From Natronorubrum texcoconense (GTDB lineage Archaea; Halobacteriota; Halobacteria; Halobacteriales; Natrialbaceae), in assembly GCF_900100335.1 (NCBI RefSeq), contig NZ_FNFE01000011.1:1-60158 (forward strand): a stretch of 60,158 bases of DNA, read 5' to 3'. A program made the position numbers and the translations under genes. The notes under the pieces were generated by a model. The model was not told where the DNA came from and ran no database searches. It was given only the letters and a program-made list of their open reading frames with translations. Positions 4,163 through 59,612 of the stretch are shown here, in pieces. Every line of letters begins with the position of its first letter. Position 1 is the first letter of the stretch.

Positions 4163-5401
4163 TCAGATCAATCCCTTTTCACACGCATTGTCTCGCAACG
4201 AGTCTAGATCTAGTTCATCGCTCATATGCAAATTCTCGAGCGTCGAAAGCGCCGCATCAAGCGGGACGTCAACCTCGTACTCATAGTAAATTCCGCCCGC
4301 GCGGCCTTCGTTTCGTTTGACGCGATCGAGAATCCCCAGCATGGAGAGTTCGGCGAGATGGTTGTGAAATGCACGGCCACCGAGGGGATCTCGGCTCGTC
4401 GCCTGTGCAAGATTCTGGTATTGCTCGTAGATCGACTGCTTTTGAAGTGGAATGTCCTCTGGGCTCGAGACCGTCGAGGCGACGACAGCCAATAGGGTGA
4501 GGTGTCCGTGGGAGGTCAAATCTTGCATCGACTCCTCGATACGCTGCTTTTCGAGCAACTGCTTGGCGTCGCGAACGTGCTGCTCGGTCACGGTCGGATC
4601 GCTTTGCCGCCGGGCGAGATCACCGGCCTCGAGCAACAGATCCAGTGCTTGCCTCGCACTCCCCTTGTCCTGGGCGGCAAACGCAGCGCACAACGGCACG
4701 ACATCACCACTCAGAACGCCGTCCTCAAAGGCTTTCCCGGCACGTTTCTCGAGGATGTTCTGGAGGTCGTTCGCGTCGTACGGCGGGAAGTGAAGCTCAC
4801 GCTCACAGAGCGTGTCTTCGACGCGCGGGTCTAACTTCTCGCGAAACTTGAAGTCGTTACTAATGCCGATGATACCGACGCGAGAATTCTCGATCTTGTC
4901 GTTACTCCGCGCTCGAGGGAGCTGGTAAAGAATCGAATCGTCATCGCCGATATAATCGATTTCGTCGAGGACGATGAGGATGGTGCCGCCGATCTCGTCG
5001 AGCCGGTCCCAGAGCATTTCATAGACAGCGTTCAGTGGATACCCAGTTCGACTGATCTGGTCGGAGGGTTCGCGAAGCTGGTTGACTAAGGAGACGGCAA
5101 CCCGGTAACTGCTAGTCAAATCTTCACAGTTCAGATAGACAGTTTCGATATCGACGTCATCGTACTGTTCGGCGTCAGTTTTGAGATGCGTTAAGAGATA
5201 CTTTGTAGCAGCTGTTTTCCCGACACCAGTCTTTCCGTAGAGAAAGATATTCCGGGGTTGGGAGCCATTGATAACCGGCTGTAGGTAGCCGGTGTAGCGG
5301 TCAAGTTCGCTATCGCGTTCTTCGAGCGACTGGGGCTGATAGTCGTCGTGGAGGATGTTTTCATCCTCGAAGATTTCTTCACTTCGCTCGAAGAGAGCCA
5401 T
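4163..5401 (-). CDS. orc1: Orc1/Cdc6-type origin-binding initiator ATPase
   Basis: A 412-residue AAA+ protein of normal Orc1/Cdc6 length. Walker A is GKTGVGKT (56-63) and Walker B LDEID (145-149). The sensor and lid region follows and a winged-helix domain fills the last 120 or so residues. The family recognises origin boxes and loads the replicative helicase. The gene reads away from an origin with matching boxes immediately upstream, so it is probably the element's own initiator. It has a TATA box about 25 bases before a leaderless ATG, and a perfect inverted repeat just beyond that could mediate autoregulation. Confidence 0.96.
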   Translation of the reverse strand: MALFERSEEIFEDENILHDDYQPQSLEERDSELDRYTGYLQPVINGSQPRNIFLYGKTGVGKTAATKYLLTHLKTDAEQYDDVDIETVYLNCEDLTSSYRVAVSLVNQLREPSDQISRTGYPLNAVYEMLWDRLDEIGGTILIVLDEIDYIGDDDSILYQLPRARSNDKIENSRVGIIGISNDFKFREKLDPRVEDTLCERELHFPPYDANDLQNILEKRAGKAFEDGVLSGDVVPLCAAFAAQDKGSARQALDLLLEAGDLARRQSDPTVTEQHVRDAKQLLEKQRIEESMQDLTSHGHLTLLAVVASTVSSPEDIPLQKQSIYEQYQNLAQATSRDPLGGRAFHNHLAELSMLGILDRVKRNEGRAGGIYYEYEVDVPLDAALSTLENLHMSDELDLDSLRDNACEKGLI

Positions 5402-5482: not shown

Positions 5483-5873
5483 ACACACCCACACCACTGA
5501 TTCAATCGTTATAGAACGAAAGGGCAGGTCGAGAACCACAAATACCGGAAAATAGATTTTGGAATAGACCTAGATTTATAATAATAGCACTACAACCAAA
5601 CCCGCAGTGCAGACGGCTGAGAAACGATTGAATGAGTGGTGTGTTAGATGTTGAATCTCGTTATCGTTGTCTTTGTTTAACCGAATCTATCTTGTTGACG
5701 TCTCTATCCTCCGAAAAAACTGAAATAGGTAATTCCTATCCGTTCACTCATCCACTGGTCGTCCGCACCGAAACGATTGAATGGGTGGTGTCTCTCTGTT
5801 GGAAGGCGTTGAAACGTCTGAATCAGTGGTGTGTCTCCCGTTTCTCGAAACGATTGAACGGGTGGTGGGTCCC
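5483..5873. other. oriC: Replication origin with five recognition boxes
   Basis: The box reads GAAACGATTGAATGRGTGGTG. Direct copies lie at 5621-5645, 5770-5794, 5811-5837 (GAAACGTCTGAATCAGTGGTG) and 5847-5873 (GAAACGATTGAACGGGTGGTG). One inverted copy lies at about 5483-5511. Between the inverted copy and the first direct copy is an AT-rich stretch (about 5537-5590) that fits a duplex-unwinding element. Inverted Orc boxes flanking an unwinding element next to an orc gene is the standard haloarchaeal origin plan. A 72-codon or longer open frame through the boxes (5632-5898) is a repeat artefact. Confidence 0.88.
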
Positions 5874-6042
5874 TGGCTCGTCTTGTAGGTTGGTTTGATC
5901 ACACCTGTCCCCCAATCGAGGTCTGTAGGTCAACTAAAGTGTGTCCACCTGCTGCATCGATTCTCTGTATTGAACACGATTTCCACGGCACACACTGAAT
6001 AAAGAAACCATGCTACCAGCTACTGGTAGCCGTCTCCGAAAG

Positions 6043-7104
6043 TCACTTGGGCACAGAACCAAGAACCGGCACGTCCTCCGTTGCATGATCATCGACTAAG
6101 GTCTCGTCGGGGCTGTACTCTCGAGATCGCGTTTCACCCTCCCGATCGACCAGATTGTAGTGGCTCATCTTCCCGAGGTCGTTCCGAACCATCCGCTTGC
6201 CCTTCGGTTCTGCAACCCGGTCGCAGTAGCGCGGATACAACTCACCCATTCCCAGCGTCCCGTTCTCGATCAGGATTTCGAGTAATACGCGCTGGTGGCT
6301 ATTCAACGAGCTAATCGTCTTTCGGCGTACCTCTCGTTTGGTTGCGTGGGTCACTGATTCGATTATTCCCGAATCGATTTGACTGGCGCCGTCGCGACGC
6401 GCGTGTTCGGCCGCGTTTCGAAGAATCCCGATAGCGACTCGTGCGTCACCGGCGGCCGCGTCGGCGATCACGGCCAGTTCGTCGCGCTGGACGCTCTCGG
6501 GCTCGAGACCGGCATCGGCCCGATCGTCAAGGATGGACACCAGCTCCGTGTCGTGATATTTCCGAAAGTGAATCCGCGGGACTGTGACCAGCCGGGAGTC
6601 AACCCGTTGCTCGAGCCGTGCGAAAAACTCCTCGTCGTCGTTGGCGATCAACAGCATCGTGACCTGCGGGTTCTCGTAGAGTTCGTACAGGACTGCTTGG
6701 TCTTCGATCTGGTCGGCTTCATCGAGGATCACGACCAGTGGCGACTCGAGTTCACGTTTGAGCGTCTGCGATAACTCGTCGGTCGGGGTCTTACGATGCA
6801 ATCCAGAGGGGGAGAGACCAACACCCTCGAGTATCCGGTGGAGAATTGCAGTGCGATTCGAGTTCCCCCAGCAATCGACGTACGCTGTTTCGACAGCTTC
6901 TGATTCTTGCTCGAGCCGGTCACAGAGGAATCGAGAAGTTGCGGTCTTTCCCGTGCCGGTCGGGCCGTAGATGAGCGCGCCGTCGACGCGATCGCCCGCC
7001 GCGACGGGCTCGAGGATATCGGACAGGTAGCTAATCTGGTCGTGTCGATGGAGAATCTCTTGTGGTTGGCTATCGGCTTCGAGAACGGTCTTCTCGACAA
7101 TCAT
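6043..7104 (-). CDS. Second Orc1/Cdc6-family ATPase (short form)
   Basis: 353 residues. Walker A is GPTGTGKT (47-54), Walker B LDEAD (127-131), a sensor-1-like LLIANDDEEF follows, and there is a winged-helix C-terminus with NSHQRVLLEIL. It is shorter than the 412-residue initiator and diverged from it, like the accessory Orc proteins on haloarchaeal plasmids and viruses. It may act at the same origin from the other flank, or serve a regulatory role. Orc boxes lie between the two genes, both of which read on the minus strand. Confidence 0.9.
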   Translation of the reverse strand: MIVEKTVLEADSQPQEILHRHDQISYLSDILEPVAAGDRVDGALIYGPTGTGKTATSRFLCDRLEQESEAVETAYVDCWGNSNRTAILHRILEGVGLSPSGLHRKTPTDELSQTLKRELESPLVVILDEADQIEDQAVLYELYENPQVTMLLIANDDEEFFARLEQRVDSRLVTVPRIHFRKYHDTELVSILDDRADAGLEPESVQRDELAVIADAAAGDARVAIGILRNAAEHARRDGASQIDSGIIESVTHATKREVRRKTISSLNSHQRVLLEILIENGTLGMGELYPRYCDRVAEPKGKRMVRNDLGKMSHYNLVDREGETRSREYSPDETLVDDHATEDVPVLGSVPK

Positions 7105-54592: not shown

Positions 54593-54732
54593 ATTCCGCG
54601 ACGATTCTGGAGCGAACCACCGCGAGGCGAGATGCTTCGTTACCTGTTACATTCAGTTGAAGTGACTTAATACTTCCCATTGGTCAGCGTGATGCACGGG
54701 ATTTAAGAGAGTTGCAACCGTATTATATGGTA
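54593..54732. other. Divergent promoter region
   Basis: Holds the upstream part of the leader A transcript. A TTTAAGA element (about 54701-54707) fits as TATA box for the rightward regulator gene. Confidence 0.35.
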
Positions 54733-54996
54733 ATGACAGAGCGGTGCGGAAACGACGATAATGACAGCTACGATGAGAAATTCATCGAACAACAGTACGA
54801 ACAGACATACACTGATACGGATTTTCTCGAGGCTATTCGCGAGTGTTCGGTGGCGTCCACAGGGAAGGTCGCCGACGAGATCGGTTGTAACAGAACCACG
54901 GCGTTGCGCCGATTGGATACGCTCGAGGAACAAGGCACGGTCGCAGTAGATGGCGAGGTCGGACGGACGAGAGTGTGGGCGGTAGTCGACGAATAG
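54733..54996 (+). CDS. Small winged-helix regulator, 87 residues
   Basis: MTERCGNDDNDSYDEKFIEQ then FLEAIRECSVASTGKVADEI GCNRTTALRRLDTLEEQGTV AVDGEVGRTRVWAV. A MarR/ArsR-like winged helix with no extra domain. Divergent from the long operon, so probably its regulator. ATG at 54727 is an alternative start. Confidence 0.8.
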   Translation: MTERCGNDDNDSYDEKFIEQQYEQTYTDTDFLEAIRECSVASTGKVADEIGCNRTTALRRLDTLEEQGTVAVDGEVGRTRVWAVVDE

Positions 54997-55005
54997 ATCG
55001 GGCGG

Positions 55006-55695
55006 TTACTCGAGATCGCCGATTTCGATGTTCTGCTCTTCGTAGTACGGACGGCTTTCGTCATCTCCGAGCTTGTCTTTCGCCTGTCGCCGCGTCTTGT
55101 AGACAGCTTCCCGATCGACACCGCGGGAGGCGTGCCACCGGTCGACGTTTTGGTTCGAAGTGAGTGAGCCCGGTCCCGTGTCCAGCGCCCAATAGTCCAG
55201 AGCCTCTGTCGGCGTCATTCCGTGCTGGAGTAGATACATCATGGAGAGTCGTGCGTGATACAGCGCCGCCCGCCAGTGTTCGGGGTAGCGGATGAAGTAC
55301 GGGAAGTAATCGTGCGTGAGTGCGTCTGCATAGCCCGTCGGTCGATCGACGTCGAACTTCCAAATCGCTGCTTGGTTCTGGTGTGCGTCCGTGATTGCGT
55401 TGAACGTCTCCGTGTCGAACTCCAGTTCACGAACTGGTTCGCTTCGGTACAGCTCTGGCGGGACGAAAGCGAAGAACACGCCTTCGCTATCGTAGACCAA
55501 GTGGTTCTGTGCGCCGCCACGAAGCCATGCGCGTTCGTAGTAGTCGTTGAGGTTGTTCTCGAGAGCCTTCTGGAAGCGCCCGAGTGCGTCGTCGAGTTCG
55601 TCGTACGTGATTTCGGACATCGCCGCAGCTTCCTTTGTCGACTCTTCAGTGAGTGGATTCAACGACGATCCGTTGGAATTTGGTTCAGATACCAT
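55006..55695 (-). CDS. 229-residue protein with HTH-like C-terminus
   Basis: The core begins MSEITYDELDDALGRFQKAL. A beta domain (VYDSEGVFFAFVPPELYRSE) and helices follow (YPEHWRAALYHARLSMMYLL). MTPTEALDYWALDTGPGSLT, then DREAVYKTRRQAKDKL, looks like a helix-turn-helix. It has its own TATA box inside a 9-base inverted repeat. Uncharacterised haloarchaeal family. Confidence 0.65.
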   Translation of the reverse strand: MVSEPNSNGSSLNPLTEESTKEAAAMSEITYDELDDALGRFQKALENNLNDYYERAWLRGGAQNHLVYDSEGVFFAFVPPELYRSEPVRELEFDTETFNAITDAHQNQAAIWKFDVDRPTGYADALTHDYFPYFIRYPEHWRAALYHARLSMMYLLQHGMTPTEALDYWALDTGPGSLTSNQNVDRWHASRGVDREAVYKTRRQAKDKLGDDESRPYYEEQNIEIGDLE

Positions 55696-55711
55696 TTCAT
55701 AGTTAACGATA

Positions 55712-55747
55712 CGTTCACTCGATAAAACTTTTTCGTCAGAGTGAACG
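55712..55747. promoter_or_regulatory. Operator: 9-base inverted repeat around a TATA box
   Basis: CGTTCACTC (55712-55720) and GAGTGAACG (55739-55747) flank GATAAAAC, which read on the minus strand is a TATA box about 26-34 bases before the 55695 start. A dimeric repressor bound here would block TBP. Confidence 0.6.
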
Positions 55748-56450
55748 TTTCGTCCGTGTGGAGGTGGGGCGTCGTTCAGAACCTGTCCGATTCTCGATAT
55801 AGAGTAAGCAACTTTCAGGGAATATTTTTTTCTTGGTCAGAATCCCTCCGAGAGTCCGGGCAAGGGTCAGAGAGGTTCAGACGGTCGCGAGAGTAGAGAA
55901 CGACAGTGCAGACAGGGACACGACCGACAGAACGATAGATTCCACGACCAGCCATGATGAGACTGAATCACCCGGGACTAGACAGATACTAAAGATGTGC
56001 CAACTACTGCCGTATTAAGTTTTTAACGAAACTCTTAAATGCTGTAGTATTCTACTAGACCGCAGTCAGTCTTTTGAGGCAAGGAGAAGGGGAACGTAGC
56101 CGCAGCCGGTCCCGCAGCTTGCTCTATCGCTGTTGTACGGGGTGTTCGTTATCTGCGCCCGAGAGACTCTCTTGTGGCCGTCTGGAATGCCCTGAGACCT
56201 GCCTACACGTTCGGAGGGAATATTGCAAAGAAAAAAATATCCCGCCACTGTTAAGCATCGGATTTCTTTCCAAGTGAGAAATCGCAAGAGGGCGGGCAGA
56301 TTCATCCCACAAGAAAATCTCTCCCAATCGTAATTCTTGCCGCTTTTCTCCCTGTGTGAGATTTTTCTTTGAGTTTTCCTCCAATTTCTGATACTGATTC
56401 ACTCTACTGCCGACGATGGCTATATACGACAACCGTCTGTTGTCTCTCCT
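55748..56450. other. Intergenic region upstream of the MCM-like gene
   Basis: No convincing gene. Short open frames such as 55833-56018 have un-haloarchaeal composition. AT-rich runs occur near 55819-55830 and 56015-56055. TATATA (56421-56426) is the TATA box of the MCM-like gene at 56451. Confidence 0.4.
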
Positions 56451-57659
56451 ATGGGACATTCTTCGAGTGGACGAACTCCACAAACACTCGCGAACGAGCA
56501 CAATATGTTCGACAGGCTTTGCGAGACGATCTCTTTGCCCGGGATAGATTCCAAGGTCGTTCAAGCAAGCGTTCTCCAGCTCGTCGGAGGATCTCGCCAT
56601 GAGCGAAACGTTGGCGCTGCGATCCGCGGTGATATTCACCTCGCTGCTGTTGTAGACGCGAGCGTGAACCTTTCGAGGTTCATCTCTGTACTCGAGGACC
56701 TCTCACAATCTCCTGCGCATCTCAATGGGACAAGTACAACGCTCACAGGTGCCGTTGGAACTGTTAAAGGGGGCTCACTCACTCCTGGTCCGTTGCTTGA
56801 CCGGGAGGTGTCCTCAGTGTTCATCGAACGGTTCGACTCGACGAACTCAAACGTTTCAGAAGCACTACAACAGATTCTCGATACAGGCTCGTACTCGTTC
56901 ACAAAATCAAATTACCGATCAACAGTCAGTGCACCCGGCTCAGTATTTATCGGACTGAACCCGAAATATGGTTCGTTCGACGATTACGAGCCGATCGGGG
57001 ACCAACTGCCTCTCACACCTGGAGTAGCACAGGCCGTCGATCTGGTGATTAGCAACACACAAGACTCTGAACCGTTCGAAAGCGCCGAGAAAAGCCTCCC
57101 CGGTGATGTCGCAGCGGAGTATATCCAAGCTACTACAACCATCGAACCGCGGTTCACGACCGAAGCGACGGAAACGATCGACTCCTATCTTTCTGAATAC
57201 GAGTCCACAATCGAAGAAATGGAGAATAGCTCTAGTTCGCCCCTGCTCTTCAGTCCCGATCGCGTACGCGAGTCGATGCACCGGCTCGCAGAGGCCCACG
57301 CAAAAAGCAACCTTGAGTCCGAAGTCACCGCGGAGAACGCCGGCCAGGTCCTTGACCTTGTGAAAAGCGTGCATTCCTCGATCGGGATTGACACTGAACT
57401 GAATACAGGGACTTACGATGGGGATGTTGTCGAAGCTGGCACATCAAAATCACAGCGCGACCGCATCAAGAACCTCAAACAGGTCATCTCAGACATCGAA
57501 ACCCGGGAGAACGCGGCCGATCCCGAGTTAGTGCTTGAACGGGCTGATGAAATCGGGATGAATAGGACCAAGGCAGAACACGAGATAGAAAAACTGAAAC
57601 AAAAAGGTGAGATCTACAGCCCGCCCCATTGCGAAGATGGCGCACTACGGACAACATAG
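56451..57659 (+). CDS. Degenerate MCM-like protein (AAA+ remnant plus winged helix)
   Basis: 402 residues with the MCM order from the AAA+ start onward: LQLVGGSRHERNVGAAIRGD IHLAAVVDAS (43-71), GPLLDREVSSVFIERFDS (113-130), EALQQILDTGSYSFTKSNYR STVSAP (137-162), FIGLNPKYGSFDDYEPI (167-182) and QAVDLVI (194-200). The Walker A GK(S/T) is absent (VVDASVN), Walker B DE is ER, and the arginine finger RFDL is AVDL. The N-terminal OB/zinc domains are missing. The C-terminal MCM winged helix is present (ERADEIGMNRTKAEHEIEKL). Expressed from a leaderless promoter, it is probably a non-catalytic MCM decoy or adaptor. Confidence 0.82.
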   Translation: MGHSSSGRTPQTLANEHNMFDRLCETISLPGIDSKVVQASVLQLVGGSRHERNVGAAIRGDIHLAAVVDASVNLSRFISVLEDLSQSPAHLNGTSTTLTGAVGTVKGGSLTPGPLLDREVSSVFIERFDSTNSNVSEALQQILDTGSYSFTKSNYRSTVSAPGSVFIGLNPKYGSFDDYEPIGDQLPLTPGVAQAVDLVISNTQDSEPFESAEKSLPGDVAAEYIQATTTIEPRFTTEATETIDSYLSEYESTIEEMENSSSSPLLFSPDRVRESMHRLAEAHAKSNLESEVTAENAGQVLDLVKSVHSSIGIDTELNTGTYDGDVVEAGTSKSQRDRIKNLKQVISDIETRENAADPELVLERADEIGMNRTKAEHEIEKLKQKGEIYSPPHCEDGALRTT

Positions 57660-57800
57660 GCTGTAATCAACTTTCTTCGACCACCGGACCCACTCTATCC
57701 ACTGAAAAATTATACAGATACGTACGTACCTTTCGAGAATCTTTTTCTGAGAGACAAAGCACAAGCTATCGGCCGCGGCTTACCGTCTCCTCTCGCCGTC

Positions 57801-58958
57801 CTACACCACTCGTTTGGTGACGGTTGCGAGCTGGCCGTTCTTTGGCGTCTGGTCACCAGTTTCGAACTTGACGACGGCCTTACTGTCGAGGTCCTCGTCC
57901 CGAAGGTCGTCGTCCTCGAGTTCAAGTACCTCTTTCACAGCGACGTAACGTGCGAATGGGTCTGCCGATTCGTAGGACTTGAGCCGCTTCTTTAACACAC
58001 TGCTGACGTAGTGCATTGGATCTTCGTACTCTTCGGAGTGCTCGAGATCACTGGCTTGTAGCGTCTGTTGGAATGGCCTCTCGGTGACGATCGCCGAGAG
58101 CGTTTCGAGGTCGGATCGGAACTCGGCAAGGTCTTCGATCCAGTTTGCGACGTCCCCGACCGTGGCGTCTCCACCCTCGACGTTGCTCTTTCTCCACGTA
58201 TCGAAGTCGACGGCGGCGATATTGTCGTCGAGACTTCGCTCCGTGAGCGTAACCAGGTGCGGAATCCCGTCTTCGCGCGCACTCTCTGTCGTGTACTGTC
58301 GCCCGTCGTCCTCGTTCGGATGCGAGGCGAAGTGTTCGCGAATCAGCGGTTCATACTGGTCGATCTTGTATCGGAGGCCGCTTTCGTAATCGGCACGTCG
58401 GACTCGGTGCCCGAGGTAGTCTTTTATTTTCTGTTCGATCAACGTATCCGAAACGGCGTCTGCCTCGTGGCGGATCACTGCGGCAAGAATCTTCGCCGTC
58501 ACCTTCTGGTTGTTCTTGAGCACCTCGGGCTCGACGCGATCGGGGTGAATCTCGAGTTCGTCACTCCAGTGCTGGTCAACCGCGTCTTTCAGTTCGTCCC
58601 ATGAGAGTGCGACGCCACTCGTCGCTAAGTCCTGTGGTGAGTAGGTTGGCGTGTAGCTTGGTGCGGTTGCGGGCTGAACTGCGCCCCCATCTGGTTGGGG
58701 AACCTGCGCAGGCCCGTCGCCTCCTGTCCGGTATTTCTCGTCGACGTCTTCCGGCTCAATTTCACCAGCCATGAGCGCACTCACATCGACAACGCCATCG
58801 CGAATCGCGCGTGGGTGAATGTCGCCCGCAACTCTCGAGTAGAACTCTTTAGCGATGTGTTTGAGCCCGGCCGACTGCGAACAGTCGAGCATATCATACG
58901 ATACTGCTTCGATGAGTTCCTTCTCTTCGGAATCTGCTTGTACTGAAACGTTTGTCAT
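57801..58958 (-). CDS. 385-residue protein, unknown
   Basis: MTNVSVQADSEEKELIEAVS then helical segments, a Pro-rich linker (QVPQPDGGAVQPATAPSYTP), and a long helical domain with KNNQKVTAKILAAVIRHEAD, LIEQKIKDYLGHRV and HYVSSVLKKRLKSYESADPF. No membrane segment or catalytic motif. Last gene of the second leader-controlled minus-strand operon. The composition suggests a DNA- or RNA-associated protein. Confidence 0.65.
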   Translation of the reverse strand: MTNVSVQADSEEKELIEAVSYDMLDCSQSAGLKHIAKEFYSRVAGDIHPRAIRDGVVDVSALMAGEIEPEDVDEKYRTGGDGPAQVPQPDGGAVQPATAPSYTPTYSPQDLATSGVALSWDELKDAVDQHWSDELEIHPDRVEPEVLKNNQKVTAKILAAVIRHEADAVSDTLIEQKIKDYLGHRVRRADYESGLRYKIDQYEPLIREHFASHPNEDDGRQYTTESAREDGIPHLVTLTERSLDDNIAAVDFDTWRKSNVEGGDATVGDVANWIEDLAEFRSDLETLSAIVTERPFQQTLQASDLEHSEEYEDPMHYVSSVLKKRLKSYESADPFARYVAVKEVLELEDDDLRDEDLDSKAVVKFETGDQTPKNGQLATVTKRVV

Positions 58959-59233
58959 TGGCGACCACCTCCAATGGTCGCACGGCCCGATCTGCGAGAC
59001 ATCGAAACTTGCTGCCCACCCGTCTGAGGAATCTTGCCAGTATTTGAGGGGAGATCTATAATTCCGAAACCCGACAACAAAAAAGGTGTATTAGATCCTT
59101 TCTGGTTGTGGGTGTGGCCCCCTCCGACCTCACGTCCGGTTAGCTGTGAATGTCGTGTCTCTTTACGTCCGCAACGCTCAAAATTAGGCGCTCTATCTGG
59201 CGAGTCGGTGGGATTGGTCTTTGGATCTTGCAT
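58955..59233 (-). CDS. Possible 92-residue leader-operon protein
   Basis: MQDPKTNPTDSPDRAPNFER, a Gly/His-rich middle and a basic end. Its first codons are encoded by the shared 19-base repeat. It overlaps the next gene by 4 bases (ATGA), which favours translation, but the composition is unusual for a haloarchaeal protein. Alternatively the stretch is a long untranslated leader. Confidence 0.4.
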   Translation of the reverse strand: MQDPKTNPTDSPDRAPNFERCGRKETRHSQLTGREVGGGHTHNQKGSNTPFLLSGFGIIDLPSNTGKIPQTGGQQVSMSRRSGRATIGGGRQ

Positions 59234-59290
59234 TGTAGTTGTGTTTGTCGTAGTCAGTACGCCCGTAGCGGCTAGCCTGTGCCACCAGGC
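59208..59290 (-). promoter_or_regulatory. Shared operon leader, copy B (hairpin plus 19-base repeat)
   Basis: Reading the minus strand: GCCTG-GTGGCA-CAGGC (59275-59290, perfect 5-base stem with the same GTGGCA loop as copy A), then about 48 bases, then ATCCAAAGACCAATCCCAC (59208-59226). The stem sequence differs from copy A while pairing is kept. Confidence 0.6.
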
Positions 59291-59321
59291 CTCGCTCCAG
59301 GGAATCGTTACGTGCGCGCGT

Positions 59322-59612
59322 TCATCGTCCTAACTCAACCTCGCCGACTCCGAACAGTTCGACAACTGGTTCGATCCAATCCGGCACGCGCTCGGGGAGC
59401 TCGTCGCGACCGGCGACGCCAGTCAGTTCGGCGAACGGTGCGCCCTCGAGAATGAACGTCTCTCCGCGACGGTGGATCTCGAGGACTTGGTGACCGATTC
59501 CGACCGCTCGAAGGGTCACTTCACACGTAACCGACGGCGGTACGTCCGCGCCGACGTCGGCCAGCGAGATCTCGACCGAATCGCTTTGCGTATTCAACTC
59601 CGTGACTGACAT
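59322..59612 (-). CDS. 96-residue protein (HalX/HVO-type small protein)
   Basis: From the ATG at 59612: MSVTELNTQSDSVEISLADV, a beta-rich middle (VTCEVTLRAVGIGHQVLEIH RRGETFILEGAP) and an acidic end. An upstream ATG at 59732 would add 40 low-quality residues. Unknown function. Confidence 0.55.
   Translation of the reverse strand: MSVTELNTQSDSVEISLADVGADVPPSVTCEVTLRAVGIGHQVLEIHRRGETFILEGAPFAELTGVAGRDELPERVPDWIEPVVELFGVGEVELGR

Follow-up and report, generated by a model that had tools for sequence, protein, structure and literature searches.

Why should a haloarchaeal mobile element keep a gene for an MCM homologue that has lost its helicase motor? The question is raised by a 402-aa protein encoded at 56451..57659 on the forward strand of a 60,158-bp stretch of DNA from Natronorubrum texcoconense (the window, analysed over its whole length), which is one entire contig of a 4.64-Mb genome assembled in 11 contigs. 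The last 95 bases of this contig (60064-60158) are the same as the first 95 (1-95), and this terminal redundancy therefore indicates that the contig is a circle of about 60,063 bp. The element carries an orc1/cdc6 gene (4163..5401, reverse strand; TIGR02928, 1.8e-133) and a second, divergent orc1/cdc6-like AAA+ gene (6043..7104, reverse strand; TIGR02928, 2.1e-54). Five ORB-like repeats (AACGATTGAATsrGTGGTGTG, one of them inverted) adjoin orc1/cdc6 at 5490..5875 and are likely to represent the plasmid origin, as predicted from their sequence. Measured around the circle, the dead MCM gene lies about 9 kb from this region. A protein encoded at 18392-20248 matches a virion structural PHROG (7e-10), and thus the element may be virus-related. 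A gene block at 11488-35816, encoding a subtilase, an 817-aa protein, an integrase and others, is common to the window and plasmid unnamed2 of Natrinema thermotolerans.

The gene has an ATG start and an intact open frame. A predicted leaderless promoter is supported by a TATA box (TATATA, 56421..56426, forward strand), recognized from the letters alone, which is centred 27 nt 5' of the ATG, and by a TATA at the matching position in the alignment of both Natrinema orthologues described below. The full open frame proposed in an earlier, sequence-only reading of this locus was thus recovered, and its own promoter remains a prediction from sequence. The N. pallidum orthologue, FGF80_RS18885 (L087 9872), is annotated with a GTG start upstream of an ATG that fits the conserved TATA, and its start is likely to lie 114 nt downstream of the annotated GTG.

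Residues 12-201 (56484..57053) form a degenerate AAA+ core matching the Pfam MCM P-loop domain (PF00493, 5.1e-17; 62.2 bits against a cut-off of 23.3), and residues 223-306 (57117..57368) match the MCM lid domain (PF17855, 1.3e-7; 32.4 bits against 27.4). The C-terminal linker and winged helix (residues 320-402, 57408..57656) show about 70% identity to the host MCM, although the archaeal winged-helix model, MCM_WH_arc, matches residues 337-392 at 0.0012 and 19.3 bits, below its Pfam cut-off of 26.1. The NCBIfam MCM model (9.6e-38) aligns residues 13-391 with its positions 275-674 of 682. Since this match begins at model position 275, the N-terminal A, OB and zinc domains of MCM are absent, in agreement with the earlier claim. 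The protein also matched a PHROG helicase (2.5e-43) and a solved archaeal MCM (1.6e-27). Profile searches, on which the sequence-only reading had staked its assignment, therefore matched MCM in both Pfam and NCBIfam, and the gene is confirmed, from its predicted product, to encode a homologue of the MCM superfamily with an AAA+ core, lid and winged helix.

Alignment with the chromosomal MCM of the host (G000:C10, a 700-aa extein with an intein directly behind Walker B) revealed the extent of the loss. The former Walker A (residues 68-75, 56652..56675) reads VDASVNLS where the host has GDPGTGKS, the former Walker B (residues 126-129, 56826..56837) reads ERFD instead of DELD, and Ala195 (57033..57035) stands at the arginine-finger position, where host SRF has become QAV. 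The Walker A lysine, Walker B acidic pair and arginine finger are all missing, as had been claimed. The protein retains the sensor-1 asparagine (in NPKYG) and the lysine of the PS1 hairpin. Among the 39 rows of an alignment (A10) comprising the window protein, 5 chromosomal MCMs and 33 of 37 viral loci, the window protein alone lacks any of the lysine, acidic pair and arginine, and the viral rows are intact (33/33), so that such loss is unusual for mobile MCMs. Of eight plasmid or viral MCMs that were fully read, one more is dead, a full-length protein of Haloarcula sinaiiensis pHsi139, and that of Halorussus pelagicus has lost the arginine finger.

An AlphaFold2 model built from the 39-row alignment, of which all other rows are MCMs so that the model is not independent of homology, has an MCM fold (pLDDT 85.1, pTM 0.78). 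It matches SsoMCM (6mii_E) with Z 36.2 and an rmsd of 2.3 over 303 residues, and 8x7t_D with Z 35.5 and an rmsd of 6.0 over 375 residues that include the winged helix. With 19 near-identical MCM rows, pLDDT was 48.8, the core falling below 50 and the lid and winged helix reaching about 80. The 39-row model is the better test; its AAA+ core and lid overlay solved MCM structures, and the predicted fold is compatible with MCM; the earlier suggestion of a retained fold thus agrees with a model that was itself built from MCM homologues.

The window protein matched 28 plasmid records in a tblastn search. The best two, on N. thermotolerans unnamed2 and N. pallidum pNPA70 (42-44% identity), are annotated as 'hypothetical proteins'. 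Both plasmids keep the neighbours of the gene, namely a small wHTH protein gene upstream (54712..54996, forward strand) and a convergent gene downstream that encodes a 385-aa protein of unassigned family (57801..58958, reverse strand), no copy of which was found in five other genomes searched. Two conserved non-coding blocks, one upstream of the dead MCM gene (56016..56109) and one at 58955..59320, are also common to both Natrinema plasmids; Rfam gave zero matches across 54990-59400, both blocks included. A homologue of the divergent orc1/cdc6-like gene is present on both plasmids as well. The proposal that this divergent Orc is a specific partner of the dead MCM is unsupported, similar genes having been found in 6/6 genomes searched.

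The N-terminal part of the three proteins was then searched against 392 genomes of the order, of which five matched at E <= 6.2e-13. These were the window, G161, G170, G167, where the gene is on a contig of 101.5 kb, and G078, where the match is a 142-aa fragment. The next match, at 2.0e-8, was a 757-aa frame. In G170 the active mcm is followed by the dead gene after 88 nt. A conserved operon of mcm and dead mcm was rejected, as the dead gene has its own TATA-like stretch there and the genes found behind it in G170 turned up near mcm in neither of two relatives; the arrangement was seen in one genome only. A dead MCM core without a winged helix was found on a 389-kb plasmid of Haladaptatus caseinilyticus (L119 5830-6705), and no further plasmid record matched this relative. 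Viral contigs yielded no relative with either the window protein or a three-member profile (13 and 54 candidate stretches). A candidate from Halorussus vallis (H71) was rejected as a broken dead MCM, being a frameshifted full-length MCM with the P-loop lysine. One search gave 80 candidate loci, part of which were inspected singly (L080, at 65% identity, fell outside that part).

Six further dead relatives without an N-terminal domain were thus identified, some of them on plasmids of Natrinema and Haladaptatus and the others in genomes belonging to two family groups. All seven members lack the N-terminal domain, Walker A Lys, Walker B DE and finger Arg, and about eight residues of the h2i hairpin are deleted in every one, so that the parts of the predicted proteins serving ATPase activity and DNA translocation are shown to be gone. 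The sensor-1 Asn is retained in three of the seven and the PS1 Lys in six. Six of the aligned members have a full-length open frame, and the seventh is without the winged helix; winged-helix stretches in G020:C18 and Halomicroarcula rubra (L084), which look broken or have an in-frame stop, were kept out of the intact set. In the core tree the dead members group as a single clade (support 100/100), which persists when motif and deletion columns are masked and the two longest branches are dropped. The branches are long and long-branch attraction cannot be wholly excluded as its source, but the h2i deletion common to all members lends the single clade separate support. The losses of the three motifs had been proposed to be independent, a point that is not supported, as all three are common to the whole clade and may reflect one old event. 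No description of this type of MCM was found in a literature survey that covered few subscription papers.

Selection was assessed in two other pairs, since the window gene and its orthologues are saturated at synonymous sites. The N. thermotolerans and N. pallidum genes gave dN/dS of 0.245 (NG86) and 0.187 (ML) at dS of 0.9-1.1, and G161 against G170, both from another family group, gave 0.283 and 0.213. The AAA+/lid body of the dead MCM is therefore under purifying selection, which bears out the expected selective retention. Three copies are broken, namely G161:C85 (two stops), G176:C17 (one stop) and a fragment on N. versiforme pNVE414, indicating that the gene is accessory and dispensable in places. 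Intact G161 against broken copies gave dN/dS of 0.35-0.41, but 0.10-0.14 in an 81-codon piece. Neutral decay had been named as the finding that would speak against a function; in intact pairs dN/dS is well below 1, while stops and decay do occur in three relatives.

Within the protein, the core contrasts with the winged helix; the two show about 26% and 70% (residues 320-402) identity, respectively, to the host MCM. This was examined by comparing own-family with other-family identity over 58 chromosomal MCM rows, which include the four own hosts, two rows being repeats of own hosts; the rows were drawn from 137 candidate chromosomal frames, the rest having been dropped for inteins, truncation or duplication. 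In the core, own-family minus other-family identity was 0.002 for the window, 0.009 for N. thermotolerans, 0.007 for N. pallidum, 0.014 for G167, 0.011 for G170 and 0.007 for G161. The corresponding values for the winged helix were 0.102, 0.064, 0.104, 0.090, 0.238 and 0.161, an excess in 6/6 that was reached in 0-3 of 5000 label shuffles, which ignore kinship. When a larger winged-helix set was used (95 loci and own hosts), the family of the window ranked close to the top but tied with other families (Natronoarchaeaceae 0.70, Haladaptataceae 0.70, own host 0.675). A single clade of the six dead winged helices was rejected (AU p 6.75e-37), though their cores form one clade. The evidence points to a link with the host through the winged helix rather than through the AAA+ ring.

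A winged-helix excess was also found in 6/7 plasmid MCMs tested (H. xanaduensis, N. halobius, H. hubeiense, H. pelagicus, N. thermotolerans plasmid 6 and H. sinaiiensis, but not Actinarchaeum), which suggests that a host-like winged helix is common among plasmid MCMs. The first five of these show a core excess too (0.028-0.045); the dead full-length H. sinaiiensis MCM has the winged-helix excess without a core excess. What is peculiar to dead MCMs is a core without a tie to the host family. Either exchange or co-evolution could suffice for the host-like winged helix. Recent gene conversion from chromosomal mcm was rejected at the DNA level: the best third-position identity between each winged helix and the chromosomal copies was 0.40-0.62, the medians being 0.24-0.50. 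The Natrinema pair has a recombination boundary close to the junction of core and winged helix (third-position identity 0.77 against 0.50, Fisher 3.8e-6), and since the similar stretch continues beyond the gene, this looks like an exchange between plasmids rather than capture from mcm.

MCM-type winged helices also occur apart from MCM cores. They stand behind unrelated N-termini in Natronorubrum daqingense (L089 4620-5204), near parA, and on two Haladaptatus plasmids (L121 and L122, 5503-6234). A stop separates an N-terminal sequence from the MCM-type winged helix in H. rubra (L084 7755-8357). In Halorussus pelagicus, a 225-aa gene annotated as MCM (L184 1131-1808) consists of the C-terminal lid and winged helix only and lies directly upstream of the full-length plasmid MCM.

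We tentatively propose, at a probability of about 0.42, that the protein is a non-catalytic MCM derivative kept by haloarchaeal mobile elements, whose winged-helix docking steers or throttles helicase recruitment. The winged helix, which we infer to be the working part, would dock on a partner shared with the host MCM during initiation, candidates being the MCM hexamer and an Orc1/Cdc6 protein bound at an origin of the plasmid or of the host, with the dead AAA+/lid body as a scaffold. Occupation of this dock could then steer or throttle helicase recruitment without any DNA unwinding by the dead MCM, so that the plasmid origin might be favoured, for example, or plasmid copy number limited. This proposal draws on the loss of the motors in 7/7 members, the single clade of dead cores (100/100) with dN/dS of 0.19-0.28, the own-family excess of the winged helix (6/6) beside 0.002-0.014 in the core, the AU rejection, the MCM-type winged helices on other N-termini, and the two orc1/cdc6 genes and ORB-like repeats of the element. 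Archaeal MCM is recruited by ATP-bound Orc (PMC7776575, available text), and in yeast the Mcm winged-helix domains latch onto ORC/Cdc6 (PMC5538431, available text). The proposal is weakened by the tie of the own family with others on the larger set, the winged-helix model falling below its cut-off, the lack of visible recent DNA exchange, the three broken copies and the distance of about 9 kb to the predicted origin. In addition, the likeness of the winged helix to the own family is not unique to dead MCMs, and the winged helix could bind DNA instead.

An unlikely alternative places the function in the AAA+ body, which would co-assemble with host MCM as a dead subunit and stall or modify the hexamer. 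The predicted core fold (Z 36.2 to SsoMCM), its purifying selection and the retained PS1 Lys and IRGDIH strand are in line with such a ring poison, as is the solved PfMCM-AAA double octamer (4r7z) among the fold matches, according to which an AAA+ ring without an N-terminal domain can form; four of four M. maripaludis MCMs co-purified, according to a review (PMC3984812, available text). However, the residues of both ATP interfaces are lost, the absent N-terminal domain is described as important for hexamer formation (PMC7776575, available text), and in a ring partner one would expect the core to follow the host MCM, whereas here the winged helix does so and the core does not. It is rather improbable that the protein is a regulator of transcription or copy number that contacts plasmid DNA through its winged helix and oligomerizes through the dead core. 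The gene does have a small wHTH gene and blocks of conserved non-coding sequence as neighbours, and winged helices of the MCM type occur on other N-termini, in one case near parA, but no operator was identified, and it is not obvious why a transcription regulator should need a winged helix like that of the host MCM.

It is more doubtful still that the gene is a decaying MCM copy that hitchhikes on the element without a present function. Its rarity (matches at E <= 6.2e-13 in 5/392 genomes of the order, including one fragment) and the broken copies in G161:C85, G176:C17 and N. versiforme pNVE414 would fit such a remnant; dN/dS of 0.19-0.28 between intact copies and 6/7 full-length frames after long divergence (Natrinema core dS about 1.1-1.8) argue against it. 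The predicted motifs rule out a conventional ATPase, and a cryptic enzyme whose unusual site still binds or hydrolyses ATP is highly improbable: a sensor-1 Asn and a sensor-2-like Arg are retained in some members, but the P-loop lysine and acidic pair are missing in 7/7.

A kept motor-less MCM separates the function of the winged helix from that of the motor. The archaeal MCM winged helix has been implicated in MCM regulation and is incompletely characterized (PMC7776575, available text). Should the match to the host family reflect a binding partner, these plasmids would point to that partner and to the way in which extrachromosomal elements reach the archaeal replisome. A broader generalization, which we regard as doubtful, is that the MCM winged helix serves haloarchaeal mobile elements as a host-specific docking module, kept similar to the host version, whereas the motor may freely die, shorten or give way to unrelated domains, and that motor-less proteins thereby enter helicase recruitment at origins.

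Compared with known systems, the window protein aligns over its full length with the core, lid and winged helix of the chromosomal haloarchaeal MCM, which, unlike the window protein, keeps the N-terminal domain, all ATPase motifs and the complete h2i hairpin. With the 'outlier' MCMs of haloarchaeal plasmids and viruses it shares carriage by mobile elements and, in 6/7 plasmid MCMs, the host-family-like winged helix, but none of the 33 viral rows has lost its Walker A Lys, Walker B acids or finger. Of 13 haloarchaeal outliers described in 2014, nine are motif-intact and four consist of the N-terminal domain only, and none in the available text of that report is of the window's type, with a dead core and no N-terminal domain (PMC3972481). 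The inactive MCM homologue of Methanopyrus kandleri (Bae et al., 2009), compared here by description only, is likewise a naturally inactive archaeal MCM, but it is not haloarchaeal and has a full-length structure according to the available text of PMC3972481. The H. sinaiiensis pHsi139 MCM (WP_004966078; L180 712-2814, annotated MCM) is equally dead, with Walker A SDPGTFTS, Walker B SRVD and finger TQC, and has lost the sensor-1 Asn as well. Unlike the window protein, it keeps the N-terminal domain, and its core groups with active MCMs, which suggests a probably separate loss. Thus, inactive or truncated archaeal MCMs are already known, and what is new here is a host-resembling winged helix on a dead core.
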